Shown: positions 16,802-25,465, counted from the stretch's first letter. The stretch is DNA of 64,000 bases from Allostella sp. ATCC 35155 (GCA_006738865.1 AP019701.1:2724001-2788000), one strand, 5' to 3'. A program made the numbers and translations. The notes: a model not told the origin generated them from the sequence alone.

Positions 16802-16873
16802 GACCTACTATATGGGATGATCGGGCTCGCGGTTGAGCCCGGATTGCGCAATCCACCCGACCGGAAGCCCGAG

Positions 16874-17383
16874 ATGGCCCTCGCCCCCTATACCATTACC
16901 GCCCTTTCCCTGCCGGAGCGGCCGGGCATCATCGGCCTGGCGCCCGTCCCCGGCCGTGTCGACCTCGAGGCCGACCTCGCGACGGTCCGCGCCTGGGGGG
17001 CGGCCGCAGTGGTCACGCTGCAGCCACAGGACGAACTCGACTGGCTGGGCATCGGCCATCTCGGCCGCGCGGTGGGAGCCCTTGGAATGGACTGGCACCA
17101 TCTGCCGATCCTCGACCTGCGCGCGCCGGATGCGGCATTCGAGCAGGCCTGGGCGGCGACGGCCGGAATCCTGCTGAGCCGCCTGCAACGGGGCGAGCGG
17201 GTGATGGTGCATTGCCGCGGCGGCTTCGGCCGCACCGGCACGGTCGCCGCGCGCCTGCTGGTGGAGCAGGGCCTCGCCCCCGCGGCCGCCATGGCGCTGG
17301 TGCGCCACACGCGGCCCGGTTCGATCGAGACCAGCGAGCAGGAACTCTATGTCCTCGCGCTCGCCGGCGATCCGCGTCGTTGA
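16874..17383 (+). CDS. dual-specificity/tyrosine-phosphatase-like protein
   Basis: A 169-residue cysteine phosphatase of the CDKN3/DSP kind. The signature loop HCRGGFGRTG has Cys114 as nucleophile and Arg120 as phosphate binder. DLRAPD (81-86) supplies the likely general acid Asp. Bacterial homologues dephosphorylate proteins or small phosphomolecules. The ATG at 16874 has GGAAG about 6 nt upstream; another in-frame ATG at 16817 lacks one. A decayed copy of its last 80 or so bases is found at 18969-19050. Confidence 0.85.
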   Translation: MALAPYTITALSLPERPGIIGLAPVPGRVDLEADLATVRAWGAAAVVTLQPQDELDWLGIGHLGRAVGALGMDWHHLPILDLRAPDAAFEQAWAATAGILLSRLQRGERVMVHCRGGFGRTGTVAARLLVEQGLAPAAAMALVRHTRPGSIETSEQELYVLALAGDPRR

Positions 17384-17510
17384 CGATGACATTCCATCTC
17401 GCGCCACGGGGAACGCGATCTTCCTTCATCATGCGCGGTCCGGCCCCGGGACTTCGATCGATGCACTGCCGGCCCGACCACCGGTCATCCCAAGGGGGTT
17501 TGCAGGCCCG

Positions 17511-18248: not shown

Positions 18249-18952
18249 CGGCCGGATCGGCGGCGAAGGAACCGTTCGCCGCCGCGGCACCCTGCGGCGC
18301 CTGTCCCGTCTGCCGTGCCGCCCTGCCGCAGCCGTTCGCATCGATCGGAGGCCGCGACTATTGGCGCTGCACGGTCTGCGCCGCGCGCTTCCTCGATCCG
18401 CGCCAGCGCCTCGCACGCGAGGCGGAACGCGCGCTCTATCTGCGGCATGCGAACGACCCCGACGACGCCGGCTATCGGCGCTTCCTGTCGAAGCTGGCAG
18501 TGCCGCTGCTCGCGCGATTGTCGACCGACGCGCGCGGCCTCGATTATGGCTGCGGGCCGGGCCCGGCGCTGGCGGCGATGCTGCGGGAGGCCGGCCATGA
18601 GGTCGCGCTGTACGACCCCGTCTTCCAGCCGGACCGGGCGCCGCTCCGGGCGACCTACGACTTCGTGACCTGTACGGAGACGGCGGAGCACTTCCACCGC
18701 CCCGCAGCGGAGTTCGACCTCCTGATGACGCTGGTTCGCCCCGGCGGCTGGCTGGCGGTCATGACATGCTTTCAGACCGACGATGCCCGGTTCGCGCGCT
18801 GGCACTACCGCAGGGATCCCACGCACGTCGTCTTCTACCGCGAGACGACGTTGCGGTATCTGGCGGCCGCGCGCGGCTGGTCCTGCCATGTCCCCATCAA
18901 GGACGTGGCCCTGATGCAGCGACCTGTCGGCCATGCGGCTACAAGAGAATAG
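18245..18952 (+). CDS. class I SAM methyltransferase with N-terminal zinc ribbon
   Basis: A 235-residue protein. The first 50 residues hold two CxxC knuckles (Cys20/Cys23 in CPVC and Cys42/Cys45 in CTVC), a likely zinc ribbon. The rest is a class I methyltransferase: motif I is LDYGCGPGPALAAML near residue 100, and TCTETAEHFHRPAAEF is the catalytic-side loop seen in type 11/12 methyltransferases. The substrate is unknown. The start overlaps the stop of the spermidine-synthase-like gene (ATGA), so the pair is translationally coupled. Confidence 0.87.
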   Translation: MTAGSAAKEPFAAAAPCGACPVCRAALPQPFASIGGRDYWRCTVCAARFLDPRQRLAREAERALYLRHANDPDDAGYRRFLSKLAVPLLARLSTDARGLDYGCGPGPALAAMLREAGHEVALYDPVFQPDRAPLRATYDFVTCTETAEHFHRPAAEFDLLMTLVRPGGWLAVMTCFQTDDARFARWHYRRDPTHVVFYRETTLRYLAAARGWSCHVPIKDVALMQRPVGHAATRE

Positions 18953-18968
18953 GCTCGAAAAGCTCCAA

Positions 18969-19050
18969 CGGCCGCGATGGCGCTGGTGCGCCACACGCGG
19001 CCGGGTTCGATCGAGATCAGCGAGTAGAAACGGAATGTCCTGGCACTGGC
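18969..19050 (+). pseudogene. decayed duplicate of the phosphatase 3' end
   Basis: About 70 of 82 bases match 17283-17364, the 3' part of the phosphatase gene. The copy reads AAMALVRHTRPGSIEISE and then stops, because a CAG (Gln) codon of the original is TAG here. No upstream catalytic part is present: the copy begins 16 bp after the methyltransferase stop codon. It is a remnant with no expected product. Confidence 0.8.
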
Positions 19051-19068
19051 CGAACGGCTGGCGGCCCG

Positions 19069-19917
19069 CTAGCGGATCACCGAGCCGCCGGTCTGGGGCT
19101 GCGCCGGCGCGGTCGGGGCGGCCGTCGGCAGCTTGAGGTCCACCGGGTCGTAGAGCCGGCCCGGCTGGCCGGGCTGGCCCATGCCGGCGCGGGTATCGTC
19201 GCGCTGGGCGCCCTGCCCCGTCACCTCGACGACATTGGGCCCGCTGTAGCGGATGCGCTGGCCGAGGATGTCCTTGGCGTAGCGCACGTCGAGCGTCATC
19301 TTGACGAAGGCGTTGCCGTCCTCGGTCCAGCCATAGTCCTTGACCTCGGCGCCCCAGATCGCGGCCATGACCGAGGTGCGCACCTCGTCGCTGACGAGGA
19401 CCAGATTCTCGGTGCGGCTGCGGCTGTCGACCTGCTGGCCGACGATGATGCGCGCGAGCTGGTCGTAGGCATCGATCTCGGCCGCACGCAGGGCCTGCAG
19501 GAACGGCCGCGAGGATTCGGTATTGGTGCCGAGGCCGATGCGCCGGACCGTGACGTTGTTGTACGAGACCGGCTTGCCGATGACGTTGCGGACGTCGCCC
19601 AGGGTGATGGATGCCTCGGAGATCGCAATGTCTCGCGCCGCGTCGTATTTCGGCCGTGCGTGCTTCACGCCCTTCACGGCCGCCTGGATCTTGGTGTCGA
19701 CCGAGGTTTCGCCCGAACGGTCGGAGAAGAAGACCTCCTGGCTGCGGACCTTGAGCCCGACGATCGATTCCGTGATGCCCCGGGTCGCCATCGCCTGGGC
19801 CATGCGGATGCTCATGAGCTCCTTGTTGCCCTGGGCCTCGGCCGCGGGGGCGGCAATGGCGGCGGCCAGCGCCACCGCGCCGGCGAGCGTCCAAGCGGAA
19901 ATGCGCACTGACTGCAT
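19069..19917 (-). CDS. LPP20-like secreted protein
   Basis: A 282-residue exported protein with a signal peptide ending near AAEAQG (residues 25-30). The stretch from about residue 135 to 215, with LRAAEIDAYDQLARIIVGQ, VDSRSRTEN and later VKMTLDV, follows the pattern of LPP20/FlgP-type domains: an Ala-rich helix, IxGxxVxS, then a hydrophobic strand. No lipobox Cys is present, so it should be soluble periplasmic or surface. The C-terminus is Pro/Thr/Gln-rich and disordered. A near-perfect AGGAGGT lies 6 nt before the ATG. It is last in a run of six co-directional genes for exported proteins. Family placement is by pattern only. Confidence 0.72.
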   Translation of the reverse strand: MQSVRISAWTLAGAVALAAAIAAPAAEAQGNKELMSIRMAQAMATRGITESIVGLKVRSQEVFFSDRSGETSVDTKIQAAVKGVKHARPKYDAARDIAISEASITLGDVRNVIGKPVSYNNVTVRRIGLGTNTESSRPFLQALRAAEIDAYDQLARIIVGQQVDSRSRTENLVLVSDEVRTSVMAAIWGAEVKDYGWTEDGNAFVKMTLDVRYAKDILGQRIRYSGPNVVEVTGQGAQRDDTRAGMGQPGQPGRLYDPVDLKLPTAAPTAPAQPQTGGSVIR

Positions 19918-19952
19918 GGTTCTACCTCCTGTTGCCGGTATCGCCCGGAAAC

Positions 19953-20291
19953 TCAGCGGACGCGCGGAGCGGGAACCGCGACCGGCCCCCGATCCACCCC
20001 GTCGTCGCCGAGCCCCAGTCGGCGCAGCACCTCGCCGCGTTCCGCCCGGGCGCGTTCGTCCACCACCACCAGCTCATCGACGCGGAACTCGCGATCGGCG
20101 CCGATACCGGGGCCGACGCGCACCGAGAGGATGACCTGCGATCCTTCCGGAGCCAGCCGCAGCCGCTCCAGGATCTTCTCGTTGAGCGAGAAGGCCGCGC
20201 GGCGCCGCTCCTCCATCAGGGCCTCGTTGCTGCCGGCGAGCGCCGGCAGCGCCACGGCGGCGCCGAGAAGGACGGCGACGGCGGCCTTCAT
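19953..20291 (-). CDS. small exported protein of unknown function
   Basis: A 112-residue protein with a signal peptide (MKAAVAVLLGAAVALPALAG). A charged mature part contains EERRRAAFSLNEKI, a short strand SQVILSVRV, and EFRVDELVVVDERARAERGE. I do not recognise the family. The gene starts 5 bp after the lipoprotein TPR gene ends and lies 35 bp before the LPP20-like gene, so it is embedded in the envelope cluster. A periplasmic partner is a guess from context. Confidence 0.68.
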   Translation of the reverse strand: MKAAVAVLLGAAVALPALAGSNEALMEERRRAAFSLNEKILERLRLAPEGSQVILSVRVGPGIGADREFRVDELVVVDERARAERGEVLRRLGLGDDGVDRGPVAVPAPRVR

Positions 20292-20296
20292 CGCCG

Positions 20297-20947
20297 TCAC
20301 CACTGCCCGGGACGCAGGACGGCACCGCCGCCGGTCATGCGGTCCTGGACCCGCGGCCGCGCCCGCGGCGCCGGGGCCCGCGGGCAGATCTCGCGGCGCG
20401 CCCGCTCCATTCCGTCGCGGGCCGGCATGTAGCCGGCATCGAGCCGCAGCGACTGCTGGTAGCTGCCCATCGCCCCCTGGCACTGCCCCTGCGCGCGGTA
20501 GATCTCGGCGATCAGGAAGAAGGTCTCGGCGGTGCCGAGCCCCATCTGCGAGACCCGCTCGAGCTGCTGCTGGGCCTGCGGGAAGCGGCCCTCCTCCATG
20601 TAGAAGCGCGCCAGGGCATGGCGGCGGACGACGTCGTTCGGCATGCGGTCGAGATAGGCGAGCCACGCCGCCTCGGCGGCCGCCCGGTTGCCCATGCCGC
20701 GCTCGGCATCGCCGAGGCAGAGGAAAGCCTCCGGCGCCGCCGCGACCTCGTCTGCGGCCTGTCGGCACCACGCCGCCGCCCGGCCGTAGTCGCCCATGCG
20801 GAGCGCGGTCATGCCCTGCTCGAGGGCGGAGGGGGTCTGCACGATGACCGGCGCAGGGGCCGCAGCCTCCTGCTGGCAGGCCGAGACCAGAAGGGCGGCC
20901 GCCACGGCACCGGCGGCGCCGGCGGAGCGGAACAGGGAACGGCGCAT
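20297..20947 (-). CDS. TPR-repeat lipoprotein
   Basis: A 216-residue lipoprotein. The signal peptide ends in the lipobox LVSAC (Cys24). It is followed by an Ala/Pro linker and four to five TPR-like helix pairs (for example EQGMTALRMGDYGRAAAWC and ARFYMEEGRFPQAQQQLERV). TPR lipoproteins act as assembly scaffolds in the outer membrane or periplasm. The ATG follows 4 bp after the stop of the CsgG-like gene, and the stop lies 5 bp before the next gene, so the three are one transcription unit. Confidence 0.82.
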   Translation of the reverse strand: MRRSLFRSAGAAGAVAAALLVSACQQEAAAPAPVIVQTPSALEQGMTALRMGDYGRAAAWCRQAADEVAAAPEAFLCLGDAERGMGNRAAAEAAWLAYLDRMPNDVVRRHALARFYMEEGRFPQAQQQLERVSQMGLGTAETFFLIAEIYRAQGQCQGAMGSYQQSLRLDAGYMPARDGMERARREICPRAPAPRARPRVQDRMTGGGAVLRPGQW

Positions 20948-20951
20948 GGCT

Positions 20952-21731
20952 TCACACTCCCTTGTAACGGGCGTCGATCTCCTGGACCGACTGCTGGACG
21001 AGACGTTGGACGAGCTGATCGAGGGTCTGGCCGCCGGCCGACGCCTGGCTGACGCCGAGGAAGGAGGTGCTCTGCGCACCCTGCTGCATGGTCTGCTCGA
21101 AATAGCCGGTCGCCACCTGCTCGGTAGTGCTCGCATCGATGATCCGGTAGCGCAGGCCGACGATCCAGACCTGGGCGGACTCGCCCGTCTGCACCGATCC
21201 CGCGACGGTCCCCGCCGCGTAGCCGCCGCGGCCGCCGATCGCCGCACCGAGGAGGTTGCCCATCGCCCGGCCGTCGAAGCCCTGCGCCGCCTGGGCCACC
21301 GGCTCGGCGCGCAGCACGTCGAACTTCAAGATGTACTTGGTGGTGCGGAACTTGCCGAGCTGGAACAGGCGGCGAGCGGCGTTCGGATCGCCCAGGTTGT
21401 AGGCGAGTTCGACCTCGCGCAGGACCGGCCCCAGCTCCCGGCGCTCCAGCACCGGGAAGTTCGCCCGGCCGAGTTCGAGCTCGGCATAGTCGGCGATGTT
21501 GTTGGGGGCGAAGCGCTGTGTGAAGCTGGCATGGTTGCTGCGCACGTCGCCCGGCAGCACCAGCACCGGCACGCCCCGCACGTTCTGGTTCATGTAGCCG
21601 ACCGGCTGGTACATCTGCTGCGCCGCCGACTGCTGGGCCACCGCGGCGGAGCTGCCGCCCCCGGTCGTCTGCTGGCATCCGGCCACCGCGACGGCGGCCA
21701 GCACCATTGCCGAAACTCCAAAGCTCTTCAT
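20952..21731 (-). CDS. CsgG family lipoprotein
   Basis: A 259-residue lipoprotein with lipobox VAGC (residues 16-19). The mature part follows the CsgG/TolB-N-like pattern: strand VPVLVLPGDV, helix IADYAELELGRANFPVLER, KYILKFDVLRAEP, a Gly-rich hairpin region (about 160-200) where CsgG places its pore loop, and strand WIVGLRYRIIDASTTEQV. CsgG forms the outer-membrane curli pore, but no curlin or CsgE/F homologue is visible here. The start at 21731 has GAGAGG 6 nt upstream; an in-frame GTG five codons earlier is less likely. Confidence 0.83.
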   Translation of the reverse strand: MKSFGVSAMVLAAVAVAGCQQTTGGGSSAAVAQQSAAQQMYQPVGYMNQNVRGVPVLVLPGDVRSNHASFTQRFAPNNIADYAELELGRANFPVLERRELGPVLREVELAYNLGDPNAARRLFQLGKFRTTKYILKFDVLRAEPVAQAAQGFDGRAMGNLLGAAIGGRGGYAAGTVAGSVQTGESAQVWIVGLRYRIIDASTTEQVATGYFEQTMQQGAQSTSFLGVSQASAGGQTLDQLVQRLVQQSVQEIDARYKGV

Positions 21732-21824
21732 CGCTGCCCTCTCCACTCAGGGGATCATTGGAACCCGCCCGCCCATCCGTCGCGCAAGGCGAGCGGATGG
21801 TTCAGGCGACCTGCCCGCCCGACC

Positions 21825-23270
21825 TCAGAAATTCCGGATCGCCTTCACCGCGTCGCTCGTCGGCTTGGATTCGCCCGCCGCCGCTGCGGCACCGTCGGGA
21901 TTGATCTTCCGCACCGCCTCGAGCGTCGCCTCGGTCTGCGCGATCGCACGGATACGCTCCGGCGCGGCGGTCGCCAGGGATGCGGGCGGCAGCTTGTTCA
22001 GGCGGTCGACGAGATCGCTGCCGTCCGCCGAATTGTAGGCGACGCGCACGAGGTCGCCGCGCGTCGAAACGAGCCGGAAGGAGCGATCGCCCAGCTTGGC
22101 ATTGAGGGGGCGCACCATCGTGTCGTTGACGATCCGTGCGAAGGCATTGCGGCCACCCGTGAAGTCCACCTCGAAGAGGGACATGCCCGACGCGTCGAAA
22201 TTGCGGAAATCGACATTGAGCACGGGCCGCAGGCCCATCAGCTCCTTGCGCATGAGTTCGCCCGCGTCATAGTCGGGCAGCCCCAGCACCTGCAGCTGGA
22301 AAATGCGCGAGGGCGCCGAGAGGTGCTGCTCGAAGAGATCGCGGCTGAACTCCTGGCCGATGATCTGGCCGACATCGCGGGTCGCCACGTCCTCATCGTT
22401 CCAGCTCCGGCCGGTCGGCACCTTGTTGTTGAAGTAGATTTCCTGGCCCGTGGCATTGTCGACGCAGGCCACCGTCCAGGAGGTCAGCACATACTTGCTG
22501 ACGGTGATTCCGGATGTCGGCAGCCGGGCGGAGAGCGTCTTGAACTTGGCCTCGCCGAAGATCGTGAAGTCCGCCGCCCGCTGCTGCGACACCGAGAGGG
22601 TGACGTCCGTCTGTCCTTCGAGCTGGCTGCGCGCCATCAGTTCGAGGCGCAGCTTCTCGGCATGCTCCTCCGACCAGACCCGGTATCCGAAGGACTGGAT
22701 CCGCTCCTTCAGGATGTTCTCGGCGATCTGCGAGCGCCGCGGCGCGATGTTCGAGGCGCGGTCGGCATCGGCGGCGAAGATGGCGACCGAGATGCGGGGA
22801 TCGCCGCGCTCGCGGATCAGCGCCACCCGCTGGTCGCGCGACATCTGCTTCAGCGCCTCCTCGACCCCGGCGACATAGACCTCGGCCTTGAGGAGCATGT
22901 GCATGAACCCGTCCTCGCCGAGCCAGGGATCGGTTTCCTTGATCACCTGCTTGATGAGGCCGTCGGAACGGGTCAGCACCCGGTCGCTGATCATCGTGTA
23001 GTTCTGGACCAGCGTCTGGCTGTCGACGAAGACCCCGACCGCCTTCTCCACCGCCTGCCTGCGCGCGTCGCGGCGCAGGTCGTCGATGAGGATGCCCTTG
23101 TCGCGGGCATATTGCGGGGCCTTGGGGTCGGCCAGCCCCTCGGCCGAAACGATGATGGTCTGTCCGGCCGGCTGCGGCTGCATCGCCGCCCGTTGCGCAT
23201 GCGCCGGCAGGATCGGCTGGACGGCCGCGAGGGCAAGCAGCGACAGGACGGCTAGGACGGTGCGGTGCAT
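21825..23270 (-). CDS. FlgT-like exported protein
   Basis: A 481-residue exported protein with a signal peptide ending at HAQRA (about residues 24-28). The N-terminal domain (about 40-140) has DDLRRDARRQAVEKAVGVFV, then SQTLVQNYTMISDRVLTRSDG, the pattern of FlgT N-terminal/LPP20 domains. A middle domain (about 150-300) reads like the TolB-N/FlgT-M fold. The C-terminal 150 residues contain a further alpha/beta repeat (MSLFEVDFTGGRNAF). FlgT belongs to the Vibrio flagellar H-ring, but no flagellar gene is near. GGAGGGGAG precedes the ATG by 8 nt. It is second in the cluster. Confidence 0.75.
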   Translation of the reverse strand: MHRTVLAVLSLLALAAVQPILPAHAQRAAMQPQPAGQTIIVSAEGLADPKAPQYARDKGILIDDLRRDARRQAVEKAVGVFVDSQTLVQNYTMISDRVLTRSDGLIKQVIKETDPWLGEDGFMHMLLKAEVYVAGVEEALKQMSRDQRVALIRERGDPRISVAIFAADADRASNIAPRRSQIAENILKERIQSFGYRVWSEEHAEKLRLELMARSQLEGQTDVTLSVSQQRAADFTIFGEAKFKTLSARLPTSGITVSKYVLTSWTVACVDNATGQEIYFNNKVPTGRSWNDEDVATRDVGQIIGQEFSRDLFEQHLSAPSRIFQLQVLGLPDYDAGELMRKELMGLRPVLNVDFRNFDASGMSLFEVDFTGGRNAFARIVNDTMVRPLNAKLGDRSFRLVSTRGDLVRVAYNSADGSDLVDRLNKLPPASLATAAPERIRAIAQTEATLEAVRKINPDGAAAAAGESKPTSDAVKAIRNF

Positions 23271-23408
23271 GATCGGACTCTCCCCTCCGGCTTCGGCATC
23301 GCGCAGCCCGGCTGACCAGGGTGGCGCGTGGCTATGTCGCGGATGCTGCGTCCGGGGTTCGATCCCCGACGGATGTTCTTGGCGGCTTCGCGCGATCCGG
23401 CAACCGGA

Positions 23409-24059
23409 TCAGCGGCCGCGGGAGCAGACGCTGTCGTAGAGGTCGACGACCGTCCGATCGATCTCCTCGCGCACGATGTCGCGTACGACCGGCAGCGGAT
23501 CGGCACCGGTGAAGGACGCGGTCGACATCTCCGCCTGCCCGACGATGCCGCCCGCCGACGACGACAATGCGAAGGTGACGGTGACACCCACCTGCTTGAC
23601 CCGGATCATCGGGTTCATCGTCGCCCGGCTCTCGATCGTTGCCCGCAGGATGTAGGCCGCCCCGAGCCGCCGGAATGCCGTGAGCGCCGCGTCCGCCTCG
23701 TTGTTGAGGAAGCGGCGCATCTCCTCCTGGGCGATCTGCCGGTTGATCTCCTCCTGCGTGTAGACCGTCATCCCGGCCCGGCGCAGCGCATCGGCGACGA
23801 TGGGAAAGACGCCGGCATAGCGCTTCTGGCGGATCAGGCGACCGCCATCCTCGCGGACCTCGGTGAAGACGATGGCGATCTTGCGGCCGGCCAGCCGACG
23901 GCGGCAGGCGGGATCGATCAGCGCAGCGGCGGGCACGGGCGGCGGGGCGACCTGCGGTCGATTGCCACGCTCCGACAGGTCGAGTGCATGCACCGGCGCT
24001 GCGCCGGCAGCGGCCAAGGTCGCCAGGAATACAACGAACGGCAGCACGGCAGCGCGCAT
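23409..24059 (-). CDS. exported protein, possible FlgT/CsgG-type domain
   Basis: A 216-residue exported protein with a signal peptide (to about PVHALD, residue 26). The mature domain has strand RKIAIVFTEV, helix VADALRRAGMTVYTQEE, then GAAYILRATIESRA and VGVTVTFALSSSAGG, an order similar to CsgG/LpoB-type folds. I cannot name the family with certainty. Two Cys (in DPACRRRL and SVCSRG) could pair. It is the first gene of the six-gene cluster; the 242-bp region to the divergent argE-like gene should hold the promoter. Confidence 0.7.
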   Translation of the reverse strand: MRAAVLPFVVFLATLAAAGAAPVHALDLSERGNRPQVAPPPVPAAALIDPACRRRLAGRKIAIVFTEVREDGGRLIRQKRYAGVFPIVADALRRAGMTVYTQEEINRQIAQEEMRRFLNNEADAALTAFRRLGAAYILRATIESRATMNPMIRVKQVGVTVTFALSSSAGGIVGQAEMSTASFTGADPLPVVRDIVREEIDRTVVDLYDSVCSRGR

Positions 24060-24301
24060 GGAACGTCTTCCGGTAGATCGGCCAGCGGCATCATGCGTCG
24101 ACCAGGGCCGACAATCAATCGCCGCGGCACCCCGCACCGACAGCCCCGGCGATGCCGCATCACCCGGTCCCAGGCGCAGACTGGAACGGGATTCCGCCGG
24201 CTGCCCATCCGCACGGTTGGCACCCGGGCGCCCGCTCCGCCATAGTGGCCCTCGGTGCCGCACGCCTTCCTTCCAGTGTTCGCTCTCCGCAGGTGACCCC
24301 C

Positions 24302-25465
24302 GTGACCCAGCCTTCCGCCGACGCCATCCGCATGATCGAGCGGCTGATCGCCTTCGACACGACCAGCCGCAACTCCAACCTGGAGCTGATCCGCTGGATC
24401 GAGGGTTATCTGTCCGAGCACGGAGTTGCCTCCGAACTGTTCTTCGACGACGACGGCCGCAAGGCGAACCTGTTCGCCACCATCGGCCCGACGGACCGCG
24501 GCGGCGTCATGCTGTCGGGCCACACGGACGTGGTCCCGATCGACGGCCAGGAATGGTCCACGGACGCATTCCGCGTCGTCGAGAAGGACGGGCGCCTCTA
24601 CGGCCGCGGCACCACCGACATGAAGAGCTTCGTGGCGGTCGCGCTCGCCATGGTGCCGCGCTTCACGAAGGCGCGGCTGCACACGCCGATCCATCTCGCC
24701 TTCTCCTATGACGAGGAAGTCGGCTGCCTCGGCGTGCGGAAGATGATCGCGGGCCTCGCCGACCGGCCGATCCGGCCTGAGGCCTGCATCGTCGGCGAGC
24801 CGACCGAGATGCAGGTCATCGTCGGCCACAAGGGCAAGCTCAGCTATCGCTGCCATGTCCGCGGCTTCGAGTGCCACTCGTCCATCTGCCACACCGGCGT
24901 GAACGCGGTCGAGGCGGCCGCGGAGGTCGTCGCCTACCTCAAGGGGATGGTCCGCCGCTTCCGCGACGAGGGCCCCCACGATCCGGCCTTCGATCCGCCC
25001 TACACCAGCGTCCATACCGGGCTGATCCAGGGCGGGACCGCGCTCAACATCGTCCCCAAGGACTGCTGGTTCGACTTCGAGTTCCGCTACCTGCCGGGCA
25101 CCGATCCGCGCGCCCTGCTGGCCGAGGTGCAGAACTACGCCGAGACGCAGCTGCTGCCCGAGATGCGGGCAGTCCGCACCGACACCGGCTTCACCTGGAC
25201 GGAGCTGTCGGAGTTCCCGGGCCTGGGCACGGCGGACGACGCCCCGGTCGCCGACCTCGCCCGCACCCTTTCGGGCGCGAACCGCTCGGGCAAGGTCGCC
25301 TTCGGGACCGAGGCCGGGCTGTTCGAGGCGGCCGGCATCCCGACCGTCGTCTGCGGCCCCGGCAGCATCGACCAGGCGCACAAGCCGGACGAGTTCATCG
25401 CAATCTCCCAGGTCGCCGCCTGCGAGACCTTTCTCGAGCGCCTGACCGAGCGCCTTTCCGCCTGA
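24302..25465 (+). CDS. argE: acetylornithine deacetylase-type M20 hydrolase
   Basis: A 387-residue M20 metallopeptidase-family deacetylase, normal length for ArgE, which releases ornithine from N-acetylornithine. Metal and catalytic motifs are SGHTDVVP (His74), GRGTTDMKSF (Asp106) and SYDEEVGC (Glu138/Glu139), with GEPTEMQ further on. The VGHKGKLSYRCHVRGFECHSS segment is typical of ArgE. The start is a GTG at 24302 with AGGTGA 5 nt upstream; an earlier GTG at 24293 is in frame. An aspartoacylase-like gene follows 36 bp later, hinting at a shared N-acyl amino acid degradation role. Confidence 0.85.
   Translation: MTQPSADAIRMIERLIAFDTTSRNSNLELIRWIEGYLSEHGVASELFFDDDGRKANLFATIGPTDRGGVMLSGHTDVVPIDGQEWSTDAFRVVEKDGRLYGRGTTDMKSFVAVALAMVPRFTKARLHTPIHLAFSYDEEVGCLGVRKMIAGLADRPIRPEACIVGEPTEMQVIVGHKGKLSYRCHVRGFECHSSICHTGVNAVEAAAEVVAYLKGMVRRFRDEGPHDPAFDPPYTSVHTGLIQGGTALNIVPKDCWFDFEFRYLPGTDPRALLAEVQNYAETQLLPEMRAVRTDTGFTWTELSEFPGLGTADDAPVADLARTLSGANRSGKVAFGTEAGLFEAAGIPTVVCGPGSIDQAHKPDEFIAISQVAACETFLERLTERLSA

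Follow-up and report, generated by a model that had tools for sequence, protein, structure and literature searches.

The genome of Stella sp. ATCC 35155 is one contig of 5,339,096 bases, from which we analysed a stretch of 64,000 nucleotides (AP019701.1:2724001-2788000; hereafter, the window). Between positions 19069 and 24059, the minus strand of the window carries six co-directional genes, here numbered 1 to 6, whose products all have an N-terminal export signal as judged by eye. Here we describe the predicted folds of these proteins and the wider distribution of their genes, and we tentatively suggest that the operon may build an outer-membrane-associated ring or scaffold that follows the construction of the Vibrio H-ring and is used without a flagellum.

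Gene layout and conservation in Stella

Gene 1 (23409..24059; 216 amino acids) encodes what looks like an exported protein with a TolB-N/CsgG-like domain, gene 2 (21825..23270; 481 amino acids) an exported FlgT-like protein and gene 3 (20952..21731; 259 amino acids) a lipoprotein of predicted CsgG/FlgT/PelC fold in which residues 147-185 form a glycine-rich GxxxG insert. These are followed by genes for a tetratricopeptide repeat (TPR) lipoprotein (gene 4; 20297..20947; 216 amino acids), a small exported protein (gene 5; 19953..20291; 112 amino acids) and an exported LPP20/FlgP-domain protein without a lipobox (gene 6; 19069..19917; 282 amino acids). The lipoboxes read VAGC in gene 3 and VSAC in gene 4, and the intergenic gaps from gene 1 to gene 6 are 138, 93, 4, 5 and 35 base pairs (bp), exactly as placed and spaced in a preliminary description of this DNA. 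That description also read the cluster as a single operon, in agreement with its synteny in three Stella isolates and with the occurrence of 4-5-6-2 as one operon in Thiohalocapsa marina and in a Chromatiaceae metagenome-assembled genome (MAG).

All three star-shaped Stella isolates with sequenced genomes carry the intact operon, the set being syntenic and approximately 69-92% identical in S. humosa (G289) and S. vacuolata (G291). The order in these two genomes is dapA-smpB-g4'-g1-g2-g3-g4-g5-g6 (g, gene), in which g4' is a seventh gene encoding a second TPR lipoprotein; g4', dapA and smpB do not adjoin the cluster in ATCC 35155. No match to g2, g3 or g6 was obtained in G290, a fourth genome assigned to the genus (570 contigs, completeness rated at 100%). 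A search of 288 other genomes of the class yielded no copy of gene 2, and within the order this gene was seen in Stella only. A short-pattern scan of 84,980 species genomes, which reaches close relatives only, located it in S. vacuolata, Thiohalocapsa marina and one Chromatiaceae MAG, and a profile search added one full-length relative in a further genome (G432). Homologs of gene 3 were found neither on plasmids nor in viral contigs, and the one plasmid match to gene 2 was a weak one from Deinococcus. All six genes stay together in the star-shaped isolates; beyond Stella they are split as 4-5-6-2 and 1-3-2.

Predicted folds of the gene products

The model of gene 2 (mean predicted local distance difference test (pLDDT) score, 73.6) comprises an LPP20/FlgT_N-like domain, a TolB-N-like middle domain and an alpha/beta C-terminal domain. 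Foldseek matched it to FlgT of the LPHT ring (E 2.2e-6), and superposition of FlgT (3w1e) covered residues 39-318 (Z 9.9, root mean squared deviation (rmsd) 6.9, 224 residues aligned), such that the modelled protein has the N-terminal and middle domain arrangement of FlgT. The window protein itself matches no Pfam family at E <= 1, and so has no FlgT_N match, related proteins have a FlgT_N match just below the cut-off, and the gene 2 profile found no match in the PDB. For gene 6, an LPP20/FlgP domain is supported at the level of profiles: its own LPP20 match is below the cut-off (E 0.00096, 20 bits), the Thiohalocapsa ortholog exceeds it (31 bits versus 25.9), and the gene 6 profile matches solved FlgP structures at E 1.4e-6 to 1e-5. 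Orthologs of gene 6 share 42-92% identity.

Gene 3 was modelled using AlphaFold2 with 30 homologs (mean pLDDT 64, core 70-90). The top Foldseek matches were CsgG (E 2.4e-6) and FlgT (E 4.4e-6), with LpoB further down the list (E 2.6e-4); VIA-align gave Z scores of 13.8 for FlgT in the LPHT ring, 13.4 for CsgG (162 residues, rmsd 4.5) and 12.9 for PelC, with FlgT and PelC scoring as well as CsgG, and of 9.3 for TraT. All fold relatives at Z >12 are ring-forming envelope proteins (FlgT, CsgG and PelC) or one uncharacterised protein, and the model supports a CsgG/FlgT/PelC-type domain. The LPHT-ring FlgT matches of genes 2 and 3 come from one entry, 8z5n. Single-sequence and Stella-only searches of gene 3 against the PDB returned nothing significant.

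The other products are simpler to summarize. Gene 4 has TPRs above the Pfam cut-offs, gene 5 has no assignable fold, and gene 1 looks from its pattern like a further TolB-N/CsgG-like domain, for which the profile evidence is weak. The folds named in the preliminary description (CsgG-type, LPP20, FlgT and TPR) were recovered, in genes 3 and 2 by model, in gene 6 by the FlgP profile match and in gene 4 by Pfam. NCBIfam names none of the core families. Profile-profile matches among genes 1, 2, 3 and 6 are weak, and we do not claim a common origin for them by sequence.

Two modules and their kinase and caspase neighbours

Outside Stella, the arrangement 4-5-6-2 (module A) is found in Chromatiaceae. 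The Thiohalocapsa marina operon runs WD40-PDZ-caspase, g4, g5, g6, g2 with overlaps or short gaps, the exported WD40-PDZ-caspase at its head and a divergent OmpA-domain gene beside it, and the MAG has g4-g5-g6-g2 as a tight operon. The Thiohalocapsa caspase domain retains the His and Cys motifs (SGHG and DTCHSG). Gene 2 orthologs in Chromatiaceae are 56-58% identical, the gene 4 homolog in this operon matches at E 1e-19 to 1e-21, and gene 5 has a longer homolog in the same position (E 5e-4). The Thiohalocapsa operon has neither gene 1 nor gene 3 beside it, and a search of the T. marina genome returned no g3 homolog.

The arrangement 1-3-2 (module B) occurs in f217, our label for a proteobacterial family of the same phylum as Stella and a different class, whose gene order looks betaproteobacterial. 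Homologs of gene 3 (49-58% identical) are present in 53 of 299 f217 genomes. A hidden Markov model (HMM) built from the three Stella copies of gene 1 matches the gene beside or upstream of g3 in most f217 loci (E 1e-31 to 1e-37), and on the other side of g3 lies a Hanks-type Ser/Thr kinase, the C-terminal 400 residues of which are the g2 domain; Stella gene 2 is around 40% identical to this extracytoplasmic part. A transmembrane helix separates kinase and g2 domain in nine of the nine fusions checked, and the g2 domain is therefore probably outside the cytoplasm. Across 37 distinct g3 loci, g1 lies beside g3 in 28 and the kinase and/or g2 in 26, several of the remainder being cut by contig ends. 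A convergent cyclase gene follows the kinase in all 10 extended kinase loci; the single one scanned contains an FHA domain. Cyclase-FHA is a plausible partner of the f217 kinase. Ser/Thr kinases with a gene 2-type sensor and convergent class III cyclase-FHA genes at L075:8540-11909 and L066-L077 lie near recA/rpoN/hprK-like genes.

The gene 1 domain also forms the C terminus of a caspase-like protease adjoining g3 in three genomes (G575, G955 and G925), two of which have tandem g3 copies beside the fusion; the g1 model matches the fusion at E 2e-24, versus 0.05 for the best of 2000 shuffles. At L035:9804-14142, a pair of caspase-like genes, of which the second carries a gene 1-type domain, precedes two tandem gene 3 homologs, and a DUF4384 gene and an autotransporter-domain gene are close by. 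A defence system was considered and set aside: PADLOC hits to the f217 kinase, caspase and cyclase were mostly on generic catalytic domains, and PADLOC gave no hit for genes 1, 2, 3 or 6.

Stella unites both modules. In a tree rooted by midpoint only, its gene 2 clusters with the kinase-free copies of Chromatiaceae and G432, apart from the kinase-fused ones (support 100/100), and the only relatives of its genes 1 and 3 belong to module B. Searches of the Stella genome for PF00069 (Pkinase; several controls gave matches) and PF00656 (Peptidase_C14; only one control did) returned no match. A separate cluster of exported-protein genes, at L029:8288-16390 in G396, encodes a TPR-CsgG lipoprotein with a CsgG domain above the Pfam cut-off, an SLH-domain protein, a FlgT_N-like protein and a match to the g6 profile, which supports the view that these types of part associate even where the sequences are not closely related.

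A candidate envelope ring and its alternatives

In Vibrio, the H-ring is built from two lipoproteins, FlgO and FlgP, together with periplasmic FlgT, and aids the flagellum in crossing the outer membrane (PMC7990780). The Stella operon shares with it an LPP20/FlgP domain, a FlgT-like fold and a TolB-N/CsgG-like lipoprotein, all exported and encoded at one locus. It differs in that gene 6 encodes no lipoprotein, gene 2 carries a C-terminal domain of its own, and a TPR lipoprotein and two small proteins are added. A search of the genome for FlgI also gave no match (several controls did), and Stella sp. ATCC 35155 is therefore probably non-flagellated. An operon that combines FlgP- and FlgT-like proteins where FlgI is absent is most simply read as encoding a flagellum-free, H-ring-like scaffold. 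A partial parallel exists in the lpp20 operon of Helicobacter pylori (HP1454, HP1456), in which an exported three-domain protein with a Lpp20-like first domain is encoded together with an LPP20 lipoprotein (PMC11756786). HP1454 is only a weak Foldseek match of gene 2, the H. pylori proteins bind FlgP in a flagellated host, and no kinase or caspase relatives are described there.

We propose that the gene 3 lipoprotein would oligomerize into a ring in the outer membrane or beneath it, in the manner of CsgG, PelC, TraT and FlgT, with the soluble product of gene 1 as its periplasmic partner, and that LPP20-type domains could allow FlgT-like gene 2 and FlgP-like gene 6 to add concentric layers. Gene 4, a TPR lipoprotein, may serve as an assembly factor or adaptor, and gene 5 may be accessory. 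Related systems could report the state of the envelope to the cytoplasm through the kinase on gene 2, or act jointly with a caspase-like protease; the links to kinases and caspases in other lineages point to a further activity of such scaffolds, in signalling the state of the envelope or acting on it. As Stella has neither a kinase nor a caspase match, we infer a structural role there, in anchoring or piercing the envelope.

Several observations weigh against this ring or scaffold. The gene 3 model is weak overall, no more than around 10-16% of the sequence is identical to FlgT or CsgG, and a shared fold is no proof of ring formation. The direct comparisons with H-ring components covered FlgP and FlgT, and the N terminus of gene 6 has no lipobox, unlike that of FlgP. 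Moreover, gene 6 orthologs were not found in the f217 genomes with 1-3-2, so that genes 6 and 3 need not act together. More doubtful is the wider proposal of an undescribed class of flagellum-independent, modular, H-ring-like (CsgG/FlgT/LPP20) envelope complexes, hard-wired, depending on the lineage, to exported caspase-like proteases or to a transmembrane Ser/Thr kinase with an FHA-cyclase, and in Stella joined from two modules to serve the envelope of a star-shaped cell.

The same neighbourhoods could instead describe an envelope-sensing module, an explanation that we consider rather unlikely. Genes 1, 2 and 3 would bind a ligand or sense the state of the outer membrane or peptidoglycan, with a Ser/Thr kinase (and then FHA-cyclase) or a caspase-like protease as the output elsewhere, and a periplasmic partner as the regulated component in Stella. 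The recurrent g1-g3-[kinase::g2] operon with its convergent cyclase, the fusions of the g1 domain to a caspase and the WD40-PDZ-caspase heading the Thiohalocapsa operon all argue for this explanation, and the f217 kinases resemble the PASTA-type kinases PknB and Stk1 in having a cytoplasmic kinase, one membrane helix and an extracytoplasmic sensor. However, that sensor is the gene 2 domain rather than PASTA, sensing itself is read from architecture, and the kinase-free Stella version has no known output component.

The remaining alternatives concern gene 3. A CsgG-type secretion channel for exported cargo, one of the options raised in the preliminary description, draws on the best Foldseek match, on the shared periplasmic-domain fold and lipoprotein character, and on the glycine-rich insert in the place expected for a membrane hairpin. 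It is nevertheless improbable, given that no protein of the whole genome matches PF03783 (CsgG) at E <= 0.001 (controls gave matches in four genomes), FlgT and PelC score equally well, relatives of the operon are not curli genes, and many f217 gene 3 homologs are without a lipobox. Inserts 147-185 and 218-234, which we take to be the places of the two CsgG hairpins, are modelled at low confidence without beta-strands; the second position, of only around 19 residues, is short throughout the 30 homologs, and a full second hairpin seems to be missing from gene 3. The first is enriched in GxxxG (139 pairs in 30 sequences versus 66 +/- 25 with shuffled columns; P 0.0035), a pattern more like a helical hairpin. 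For these reasons gene 3 is not called a CsgG channel; the secretion pore is the weak part of the earlier options and the outer-membrane ring or scaffold the best-supported one. The GxxxG pattern would better suit a sealed outer-membrane ring like that of TraT, which has membrane helices and forms no pore (PMC11733297, PMC12658005), with a glycine-zipper helical hairpin, in place of a barrel, anchoring gene 3. TraT shares the TolB-N/LptE-like core and a helical insert, and itself forms a decameric ring, but there is no sequence match, TraT is conjugation-related with an extracellular ring domain, and the first insert of gene 3 is moderately hydrophobic (best 11-residue mean, 1.34) with no full hairpin modelled, leaving this arrangement quite unlikely. 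An accessory of peptidoglycan synthesis or polysaccharide export, as the LpoB and PelC matches might indicate, is very improbable, as biosynthetic genes of these kinds were identified neither in the operon nor in those of its relatives that we read.

Envelope assemblies of the TolB-N/CsgG/FlgT/LPP20 kind are already known. No system in the libraries searched matches this one, in line with the preliminary description, which knew none by name; the literature, with subscription papers and preprints outside coverage, yielded no paper combining CsgG, LPP20 and caspase, or FlgT, FlgP and CsgG. Within this incomplete coverage, neither the families nor their kinase and caspase links are described. If the ring or scaffold is correct, flagellar outer-ring building blocks would constitute a general-purpose, flagellum-free envelope module that can be coupled to kinase or caspase outputs, and families that match no model in those libraries (genes 1, 2 and 3 and the kinase and caspase fusions) would gain a testable role. 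It would also be the first candidate envelope assembly named in Stella, in which the genetics of cell shape remains open (PMC6687932).

With regard to the surroundings of the operon in ATCC 35155, a scan of the minus strand for promoters and terminators was uninformative, and the gene upstream (24152-25465) is divergent on the plus strand. The G+C content of the cluster (69.6%) equals that of the window (69.9%), and composition therefore gives no sign of recent transfer. On the other side, a fragment of the adjoining phosphatase-like gene is duplicated approximately 1.5 kb away (18935-19051 and 16811-17407), the two copies flanking two methyltransferase-like genes; this repeat looks like a small insertion beside the operon in ATCC 35155 only.

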